Below, piece by piece: positions 899 through 3,491 of a stretch of 64,000 bases of DNA (positions are counted from its first letter, which is position 1; every line of letters begins with the position of its first letter). Both the position numbers and the translations under genes were made by a program. Origin of the DNA: Roseococcus sp. SYP-B2431 (lineage in GTDB: Bacteria > Pseudomonadota > Alphaproteobacteria > Acetobacterales > Acetobacteraceae); the NCBI RefSeq assembly GCF_004336745.1, contig NZ_SJXD01000022.1, positions 496,001-560,000 of the forward strand, written 5' to 3'. A model generated the notes under the pieces. It was not told where the DNA came from. It made no database searches and saw only the letters and a list, made by a program, of their open reading frames with translations.

Positions 899-1642
899 AT
901 GGCTCACCGCTTGCTCAGATCCCGCCTCTGGCTGCTCCTGCCATGGCTCGTCGGCGCTTGCGCGCTGCCGGTCAACACCGCGCTGCGCGACTGGTCGCGG
1001 CTGGCGGATACCGCCGTGGCTGGCCCGGCAGCCGCGCCCCCGGCCGAGGCCATGCAGCAGGCGCTCTCCCTCTATTTCCAGGCCCTCGGCGTGCTTTGGG
1101 ACGGCGCGCCCCTCACCTTCGACGCGCCGGGTTTCGCGGCCCTGGCGCGGCAGCTGCCCGACCCCGCGCCCGCCGGGGCGATCCTGGCCTTGGGCGAGGT
1201 GCTGCGCGCGGCGAGCGAGGAGGTGCCGCCCCGCTGGCTCCCCCGCGACAATTCCGGCCCCACCCCGGCCTATGAGGACCGGCGGCTCACCGCCCTGCTC
1301 CGCGGGGCGGAGGCGCCGATGCGGGTCCTTCTCCTTGCCCTCGCCGCCCCAGGCCGGGCCGAGGCGCCCGCCCCGCCCGCGCCCGGCGAGGCGACGAGCG
1401 ACCCAGCCCTGCGGCAGGCGCGCCTCGAGCAAGAGGCCGAGCGCCTGCGCCTCGCCGCCGAGGGACGGGCCGCGGGCGCGCAATATGTCGCGGTGCTGGA
1501 CCATGTCCTGGAGGGACAGGCCGTGCTGGCGGCCCATGCCGGCCGGATCAGGCAGAGGTCCACGGAGCTCCGGCTTCGCCTCGCCGAGGATCGTCTCCGC
1601 CGCATCCTGGATGGCCGCGACGTGGCGACGGCGGGTCCATGA
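899..1642 (+). CDS. Putative outer-membrane lipoprotein, paralogue A
   Basis: 247 aa. A short basic N-terminus and hydrophobic stretch end in LVGAC, a good lipobox, so Cys21 is predicted to be lipidated. The mature part is Ala/Leu/Arg-rich and mainly helical, with RDW near the start, an AMQQALSLYFQAL helix, an LALGEVLR helix and a C-terminal AEDRLRRIL helix. The same landmarks recur in the same order in the next gene, so the two are tandem paralogues. The stop overlaps the next start as ATGA, implying coupled translation. No known family recognised. The start at 899 is chosen because it gives a compact signal peptide; longer versions bury it. Confidence 0.72.
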   Translation: MAHRLLRSRLWLLLPWLVGACALPVNTALRDWSRLADTAVAGPAAAPPAEAMQQALSLYFQALGVLWDGAPLTFDAPGFAALARQLPDPAPAGAILALGEVLRAASEEVPPRWLPRDNSGPTPAYEDRRLTALLRGAEAPMRVLLLALAAPGRAEAPAPPAPGEATSDPALRQARLEQEAERLRLAAEGRAAGAQYVAVLDHVLEGQAVLAAHAGRIRQRSTELRLRLAEDRLRRILDGRDVATAGP

Positions 1643-2469
1643 TCGGCGGCCGGACAGCGGGGCACACCCATCGCATGCGCGTCACTCGTCTTCTCTGGAC
1701 CCTCCTGGCGCTGAGCGGCTGCAATGCGCCGGACTACACCCCCGTGCGTGACTGGGCGGCGACGGCGAGCCTGGCGGTGGACCATCCGCGCATCGCCGGC
1801 AGCCCCCTCGCCGGCAGCCCCGTCGCCCCGCCGCCCGGCGCGGAACCCGCCCAGCCCCAGCCACGCCGGGACGACAGCATCCTGGCCATGCAGGAGGCCC
1901 TGGCCACCTATCTCCAGGCGGTGGCGACGCTCGCCTCGGACGGCGTGCTGCCCTATCGCGAAAGCCCTTTCGTGGATCTCGCGGCGCGCGTCACGCCGGC
2001 ATCCCCGTCGGGCGGGCAGGCCATCGCAGCGCTCGGCCTGCTGCTGCGCCACGCCAATCGCACCAACGCGCAGGCGCCGATGCTGCGCGACAACATCCGC
2101 GCGGCCGATGCGCCGGTGCAGGCCCTGATCTCCGCCCTGCTCGACGCCGTCGCGCGTCAGGCCGGCGAAGAGACCCAGGCGCGCCAGGACGCGGCCGCCT
2201 TCTACGCCGGGATCGAGGCCCGGAGCGACGATGCGGCGGCGCGCCAGGCGCTGCGCGAATGGGCCGGCCGGCGCGACGGCGCATTCGCCGCCCAGGCCGC
2301 CGCGCGGGCGCAGTACGGCGAAATCCTGACGCGCGTGGCCGCCGGCCATGCCCTGCTCAAGGGCCGCGCCGGCCGCGTGACGCAGGAGGACGTCGTGCAG
2401 GAGGTCCGCATCGCCGAGGACCAGCTGCGGCGTGCCGCCCTCGCGCTGCGGCGCGGCGGCGCCGGATGA
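1639..2469 (+). CDS. Putative outer-membrane lipoprotein, paralogue B
   Basis: 276 aa from the ATG overlapping the previous stop; a second in-frame ATG at 1675 also works. The lipobox ALSGC puts the lipidated cysteine at residue 28. It shares with its neighbour the RDW motif after the cysteine, a helix of the form AMQEALATYLQAV, an AIAALGLLLRHA helix, an LRDN motif, a YGEILTRVAAGHALL helix and a C-terminal AEDQLRR helix. It has a longer linker rich in Gly, Pro and Ser after the cysteine and a longer middle helical section. The stop overlaps the start of the barrel gene as ATGA. Function unknown; the context suggests an outer-membrane complex. Confidence 0.72.
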   Translation: MIGGRTAGHTHRMRVTRLLWTLLALSGCNAPDYTPVRDWAATASLAVDHPRIAGSPLAGSPVAPPPGAEPAQPQPRRDDSILAMQEALATYLQAVATLASDGVLPYRESPFVDLAARVTPASPSGGQAIAALGLLLRHANRTNAQAPMLRDNIRAADAPVQALISALLDAVARQAGEETQARQDAAAFYAGIEARSDDAAARQALREWAGRRDGAFAAQAAARAQYGEILTRVAAGHALLKGRAGRVTQEDVVQEVRIAEDQLRRAALALRRGGAG

Positions 2470-3491
2470 CCCTGGCGCGGCGCCGATCGCCGGGCATCGC
2501 GCTCGCGGCCGGCCTGCTGGCCGCGGCCCCGTGCGGCCCATCGGGCGCGGCCGCGCAGACGCCGGACGGCAGCCAGGTCCAGGACCGCATCGCGCAGATG
2601 CACACGACCTTCCGGTCCCGGAACGGCGGCGTGCTCGGGCTGATGGGCTACAACATGACGCCCGACGGCTCGACGAATTCGCTGGTGATCAACCGCGGTT
2701 CCGGCAAGGCGGGCGGCGATGGCGCGACCTCACTGCAGCTCAGCCAGTTCGGCTTCGGCTTCACGGTGAGCGAGTCGCTGCCGGTCTTCCTGGAATCCTA
2801 CCTCGGCGTCGCCCGCTACGACCCGCGGGCCTATCTCACGGGCGGCGCGGCGGAGCGCATCCTGCCGCTGCGCTGGAACAACATCACCGCGACATTGGGC
2901 ATCGGCTACGACATCCGCCTCGCCGAGAACCTCTGGCTGCGGCCGATCCTGAACGGCTCGCTGGGCCTCGCGGCCTCCGATGCATCGCTGTTCGGCGCCT
3001 TCGTCGACTACCGCCGGGGCACCGATCTCTCGGCGCTCACCGACAAGCACATGAACGTCTATGGCATCGGCGCCTCGCTGATGCTGGCCTATTACGACTA
3101 CACGCCGGCGCGGAACATCGACGTCGAGCTGCGCTACACGCAGCTGCGCCTGCAGAGCTTCGGCGACACGCCCGCCGGCATCGGCGGCACCTCCGTCCCG
3201 CGCACCCTCGGCCTCTGGGCGCGCCTGCGCTGGCCGACCGGCCGGGAGGCCTTCGGGCGGCCGGTGCGCTGGGTGATCGACGGCTCGGCCTCGGCCTATC
3301 TCGGGGACCAGAGGCAGGCGCTGGGCTATGCCTGGGGGGTGAAGATCGGCGGCGGCATCGAGTTCGACGTGGGCCGCTACGAGGTCGGCGCCATGGGCAT
3401 CAACCTCAACCGCGTGCGGCTGATCGGGCGCTACTTCTTCGGCGACGGCGGGGTGACCGGCGCCTCCTTCGGCATCGGCATGAGCTTCTGA
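2466..3491 (+). CDS. Outer-membrane beta-barrel protein, exported
   Basis: 341 aa. A Sec-type signal peptide (basic start, hydrophobic core, AAA-Q cleavage near residue 30) is followed by alternating amphipathic strands such as LWLRPILNGSLGLAAS, VWGVKIGGG-like segments and VRLIGRYFFG. The last residue is Phe after GIGMS, the classical BAM recognition ending of barrel proteins. I infer a barrel of roughly 10-12 strands, but no named porin or transporter family is recognised. The ATG overlaps the lipoprotein stop, so all three genes are probably made together and may form a complex. The downstream gap carries a promoter-like sequence, so the operon probably ends here. Confidence 0.7.
   Translation: MTLARRRSPGIALAAGLLAAAPCGPSGAAAQTPDGSQVQDRIAQMHTTFRSRNGGVLGLMGYNMTPDGSTNSLVINRGSGKAGGDGATSLQLSQFGFGFTVSESLPVFLESYLGVARYDPRAYLTGGAAERILPLRWNNITATLGIGYDIRLAENLWLRPILNGSLGLAASDASLFGAFVDYRRGTDLSALTDKHMNVYGIGASLMLAYYDYTPARNIDVELRYTQLRLQSFGDTPAGIGGTSVPRTLGLWARLRWPTGREAFGRPVRWVIDGSASAYLGDQRQALGYAWGVKIGGGIEFDVGRYEVGAMGINLNRVRLIGRYFFGDGGVTGASFGIGMSF

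Follow-up and report, generated by a model that had tools for sequence, protein, structure and literature searches.

Two paralogous lipoproteins encoded ahead of a passenger-less autotransporter-type barrel: a candidate outer-membrane unit in Roseococcus and its relatives

In a 64,000-nucleotide stretch of the genome of Roseococcus sp. SYP-B2431 (contig NZ_SJXD01000022.1, positions 496,001 to 560,000; the whole stretch is hereafter called the window), three consecutive genes encode two paralogous lipoproteins, lipo1 and lipo2, and a predicted outer-membrane barrel that has the autotransporter-translocator fold and no passenger (Table 1). We tentatively favour the explanation that the two lipoproteins form an outer-membrane pair recruited to this orphan autotransporter-type barrel, which they would, as a heteromeric accessory, help to assemble or to gate.

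Table 1. Positions, within the window, of the three genes and of their parts.
Feature	Position	Strand	Basis or remark
lipo1, first lipoprotein, 247 residues	899..1642	+	open reading frame list, gene call
lipobox LVGAC of lipo1, and RDW	Cys 959-961; RDW 986-994	+	direct reading
ATGA overlap lipo1/lipo2	1639..1642	+	putative translational coupling
lipo2, second lipoprotein, 276 residues, lipobox LSGC	1639..2469	+	open reading frame; helical-bundle model
lipo2 codons of Cys and membrane-proximal NAPDYTPVRDWAATASLAV segment	1720..1779	+	conservation 3.40 bits
ATGA overlap lipo2/barrel	2466..2469	+	direct reading
predicted 12-strand outer-membrane barrel, autotransporter-translocator fold, passenger-less, C-terminal Phe	2466..3491	+	model
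barrel codons of helix 55-64 (GVLGLMGYNM), before strand 1	2628..2657	+	model, conservation; lumenal place presumed

Conserved linkage and overlapping starts

Read from the sequence, the three genes, the duplication of the lipoproteins, the available overlapping starts and the conserved linkage of the trio stand on firm ground. A scan for the barrel with one genome per species gave 31 named loci, the record titles of which carry the genera Roseococcus, Roseomonas, Neoroseomonas, Falsiroseomonas, Siccirubricoccus, Sabulicella, Roseicella, Pseudoroseomonas, Dankookia and Rubritepida, the remaining titles reading only Acetobacteraceae bacterium or Rhodospirillales bacterium. By six-frame profile searches, on which the counts of trios and of absent lipoproteins are based (gene calls in relatives came from a purpose-written codon-usage script, which overlooked the barrel of L088), two lipoprotein genes followed by the barrel gene on the same strand are present in 18 of the 31 loci. 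A single lipoprotein gene lies immediately upstream of the barrel in two (L068, L071), and in L066 the start of a downstream lipoprotein is interrupted by the contig end. No lipoprotein was found in the flank examined of the other ten (L067, L069, L070, L074, L081, L083, L086, L087, L088, L090), of which seven span about 8 kb on each side and L070, L081 and L090 are cut. The flanks of the trio vary, with an HIUase gene in L077 and phage tail genes in three loci, and TctC-like genes, judged by reading, adjoin the trio of the window and several others; since the trio is kept while its flanks change, it can be taken as a conserved unit.

The same linkage is seen in the genus of the window. With all candidates scored, eight of its 21 genomes have both the barrel and the lipoprotein, 12 have neither and one has a fragmented barrel only, i.e., the two are co-present or co-absent in 20 of the 21. 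In the eight genomes having both, barrel and lipoprotein are adjacent, with two lipoprotein copies in seven; the source genome of the window has one barrel copy. An earlier note on this DNA, made from the letters alone, had named as a check whether the three genes stay together in related genomes, and such linkage is observed.

It is noted that the window together with the 18 named loci gives 19 trio loci with 38 junctions, and that all 38 have a possible start overlapping the preceding stop; the overlap is four bases long at 37 junctions and a single base long at the remaining one. At the lipo1/lipo2 junction the start is at −4 in all 19 loci, with an additional later, non-overlapping start in seven, while at the lipo2/barrel junction it is at −4 in 18 loci and at −1 in L080, with a later, non-overlapping start too in 11. 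Thus a later in-frame start is available at 18 of the 38 junctions, including that of lipo2 in the window (1675), with which the 264-residue database version of lipo2 (P0121) is compatible, and the real starts are not proven. The two ATGA overlaps pointed out in the earlier note are both present in the window, and lipo1, lipo2 and the barrel may be translationally coupled.

Paralogous lipoproteins

Both lipoproteins carry the signal peptide and the lipobox Cys by which a bacterial lipoprotein is recognized, and in each the same landmarks are read directly in the same order: LVGAC-ALPVNTALRDW, AMQQALSLYFQAL, ALGEVLR and AEDRLRR in lipo1, and LSGC-NAPDYTPVRDW, AMQEALATYLQAV, ALGLLLR and AEDQLRR in lipo2. 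A single BLASTP comparison of the two gives E = 5e-15, with 31% of the residues identical across 197 aligned columns. In all 19 trio loci both copies have a loose lipobox pattern close to the start, a pattern for which chance matches are possible. In a tree of 48 rows (19 first copies, 19 second copies, seven singles and three from a genus having the lipoprotein only), the first copies form a single clade with support 100/99 and the second copies group together in 54% of the bootstrap trees. Because of the first-copy clade, the duplication predates the 19 loci; by the sequences, it is old and both forms have been retained. This clade, like the overlapping start available at every junction of the 19 loci, goes beyond what coincidence would give. 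Hence both the shared landmarks and the origin by duplication that the earlier note had described hold. The pairwise distances among lipo1, lipo2 and the barrel correlate at 0.74-0.87, values that common descent alone could yield.

Structural models were made of lipo2 and the barrel, and the folds of these two proteins are predicted accordingly. The AlphaFold2 model of lipo2, built with 77 sequences, is an all-helical bundle (mean predicted local distance difference test score 90.0, predicted template modelling score 0.85), and comparison of this model with solved structures gave no clear relative. In the aligned lipoproteins the highest conservation is found from the lipid-bearing Cys through RDW (3.40 bits, the next segments having 3.17 and 3.05); this segment is a helix in the lipo2 model and is followed, in the alignment, by a gap-rich, Pro-rich linker. 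The lipoprotein family was not found outside Acetobacteraceae in the genome samples searched.

The barrel and its missing passenger

The third gene encodes 341 residues with a signal-peptide-like N-terminus, 12 predicted strands and a final Phe, in agreement with the signal-peptide barrel ending in Phe that had been read from the letters. The model resembles the translocator domains of NalP, Hbp, EspP, AIDA-I and BrkA at 9-14% identity, the alignment with NalP (1uyn) and AIDA-I beginning at residue 54. It has its own helix (residues 55-64) before strand 1 and no domain ahead of the barrel: only residues of about 29-54, i.e., about 26 poorly conserved ones, separate the signal peptide from the helix, with a conservation of 2.16 bits against 3.70 bits for the helix. 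In autotransporter translocators a helix lies in the lumen, and that of the window barrel is likely its equivalent. The model thus has the 12-strand C-terminal barrel with a presumably lumenal helix of the type Va translocators, and lacks their N-terminal passenger domain; from the known translocators it differs in being passenger-less and in being linked to two lipoproteins. Judged by the model, the barrel belongs to the autotransporter-translocator fold group, yet it is not an autotransporter because it has no passenger.

The earlier note knew no family with such a trio. This stands insofar as Pfam, searched up to E = 1, has no entry matching lipo1, lipo2 or the barrel, NCBIfam gave only noise far under its cut-offs, and PADLOC and PHROGs gave nothing above noise, but the barrel, being autotransporter-translocator-like, is not of an unknown kind. 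With PF03797 at E up to 0.1, 19 of 92 barrel members match (best 5.2e-7), the window member not among them, and two of five distant barrel relatives match with scores under the curated cut-off. A dedicated family for the passenger-less relatives was not found in Pfam or NCBIfam, nor was a description of the lipo1-lipo2-barrel trio in the literature searched.

Proposed mechanism

Based on these data, we infer a physical complex and a joint function, in which the three genes would give one outer-membrane unit. The barrel would be an orphan type V (autotransporter) translocator without a passenger, the short mature N-terminus of which leads into the conserved helix, probably in the lumen. The sister lipoproteins, encoded in fixed order and with overlapping starts immediately ahead of the barrel, would both be anchored by their lipid in the inner leaflet of the outer membrane, with the conserved membrane-proximal RDW helix binding the periplasmic side of the barrel, and the pair would then aid the assembly of the barrel or set its gate. 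Such an accessory role would be comparable to that of SadB for SadA or of LptE for LptD. A plugging role of the lipoproteins finds no support in the form suggested in the earlier note: the barrel model already places a helix of the barrel itself ahead of strand 1, so that no lipoprotein is required for plugging, and no lipoprotein accompanies the barrel in the flanks examined of ten of the 31 named loci and of all nine plasmid loci considered below.

In this Roseomonas-group operon a passenger-less barrel is linked to two lipoproteins that have been kept together, which gives concrete partners for probing such barrels. Should these lipoproteins prove to assemble the barrel, to gate it or to pass through it, the type V fold would have a new lipoprotein-barrel arrangement. 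The more far-reaching version, that the trio is a hitherto undescribed machine of the outer membrane, whose autotransporter-type translocator has lost its tie to a passenger and been rewired to duplicated heteromeric helical lipoproteins as their surface exporter or as a channel gated by them, is possible but doubtful.

Comparison with lipoprotein-assisted barrels

LptDE is a lipoprotein-barrel complex of the outer membrane. The BAM system likewise has outer-membrane lipoproteins serving a single barrel. By contrast, the window barrel has neither the POTRA domains (no Pfam match) nor the 16 strands of BamA, having a predicted 12. The SadB-SadA pair is alike in having a lipoprotein alongside an autotransporter-type protein: SadB assists the surface display of SadA (PMC3953254; PMC6604945), is described as a trimeric inner-membrane lipoprotein (PMC6604945) and is similar to MATH domains (PMC3953254). 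In the present case there are two paralogous lipoproteins, lipo2 being modelled as helical; SadA is a trimeric autotransporter, while the window barrel is a single chain without a passenger. By analogy, the trio may work like such lipoprotein-assisted barrel systems.

Alternative explanations

The main dull alternative is that lipo1, lipo2 and the barrel belong to a common regulon or serve a common envelope task, for example the use of sulfated compounds, with no complex, the operon meaning co-expression only. We consider this rather unlikely. In its favour, a related sulfatase lies in the examined flank of seven of the 31 barrel loci (L069, L074, L075, L076, L083, L088, L089), all passing the limit of 1e-60 that was also used for the background count. 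With a background of 16 copies in 11 genomes, about 0.12 such loci would be expected, a rough figure since the loci are not independent; the enrichment may point to a nutritional or envelope setting. Lipoprotein and barrel are also each found without the other. However, the fixed order and overlapping starts across 19 loci suggest more than co-expression, and the genome of the window has no such sulfatase at 1e-60. In several of the sulfatase loci an AraC-type regulator is present as well, together with a small protein resembling, by eye, another barrel.

The main alternative of interest, which we regard as unlikely, is a dedicated exporter like Slam, in which the autotransporter-type barrel would bring the two lipoproteins encoded beside it to the cell surface. 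Surface proteins often diverge fast, and lipo1 is the fastest-diverging of the three (median pairwise difference 0.557 among first copies, 0.478 among second copies and 0.33 for the barrel). A lipobox gene directly adjoins the barrel in 21 of the 31 loci, the type of signal used to list Slam substrates; 185 of 353 putative Slam homologues adjoin a lipobox gene (PMC5449769). The likeness lies in this adjoining of barrel and lipobox genes. Slam itself combines TPR repeats with a DUF560 barrel predicted to have 14 strands, and many of its neighbours are TbpB-like (PMC5449769). By contrast, the window barrel has 341 residues and 12 predicted strands, with neither an N-terminal TPR nor a DUF560 match in the Pfam search, and the model of lipo2 is all-helical. 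The TbpB-like fold is beta-rich, and lipo2 as modelled does not have it. Moreover, the lipid-adjacent segment is the most conserved part of the lipoproteins and a helix in the lipo2 model, which does not suit a free tether. Export would also require the helix of the barrel to vacate the pore, and barrels are present without local lipoproteins.

A phage-conversion cassette, i.e., a prophage-borne trio altering the host surface, is very improbable: although in L075, L076 and L089 (three species) the trio comes immediately after phage tail genes, with about 90% identity from these genes through the barrel stop, and in the F. bella genome (G152, contig C12, about 164999-210969) the opposite end of that prophage has a gene that, by reading and with no search made, looks like one for a serine recombinase, the barrel gave no match in 50,697 phage records or in an IMG/VR pattern scan, the sole IMG/VR lipoprotein match is the edge of apparently the same prophage, and a second R. 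rosulenta trio (L072) has no called phage tail gene beside it, the identity shared by L072 and L076 still spanning the entire trio.

Barrels and lipoproteins apart

Across 299 genomes of Acetobacteraceae, where scoring was confined to the top 7-8 candidates of each genome, 16 have both, six the barrel only and five the lipoprotein only, counts that are not independent of the named loci because some of these genomes are the same assemblies. When 13 of them were rescored with all or nearly all candidates (150/164 and 150/155 in two lipoprotein cases), the weak lipoprotein matches in G049 and G175 dropped out, leaving a full-length barrel only in G107, G148 and G162, partial or weak barrel matches only in G059, G269 and G166, and the lipoprotein only in G097, G197 and G289. 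In three genomes of genus g97 (L107 6135-7358, L108, L109), in which no barrel was found, a homologous lipoprotein precedes a different, small protein of 143 residues, and the lipoprotein fold can therefore serve another purpose too.

The records that contain relatives of the barrel carry the labels Alpha-, Beta- and Gammaproteobacteria, Burkholderiales being among them. In the plasmid collection, nine of the 16 barrel-bearing records were examined, with flanks of about 5 kb where the record permits, and none has a lipoprotein beside the barrel. L129, L132, L133, L135 and L136 are absent from alignment A7, the barrels of L129, L132 and L133 being in two pieces or frames; the barrel tree leaves out L129, L132, L133, L135 and the broken barrel of L090.

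Three further arrangements are noted. In G237 two lipoprotein genes face each other (L113 6193-7457) and the barrel is on a separate contig; a Rubritepida metagenome-assembled genome has a barrel remnant broken over two frames (L090 2640-3124); and a genome from another family has one with two internal stops (L092).

Finally, between an SDR-like gene and lipo1 of the window there is a gene of 211 residues (119-754). Its product gave zero Pfam matches at E up to 1, and its motif GWGICGFTSTFY, for which library searches gave no match, is reminiscent of a cysteine-protease nucleophile. Between the corresponding neighbours in Roseococcus pinisoli (L060) no counterpart is called, and the gene has 53% GC against 70% for the window.
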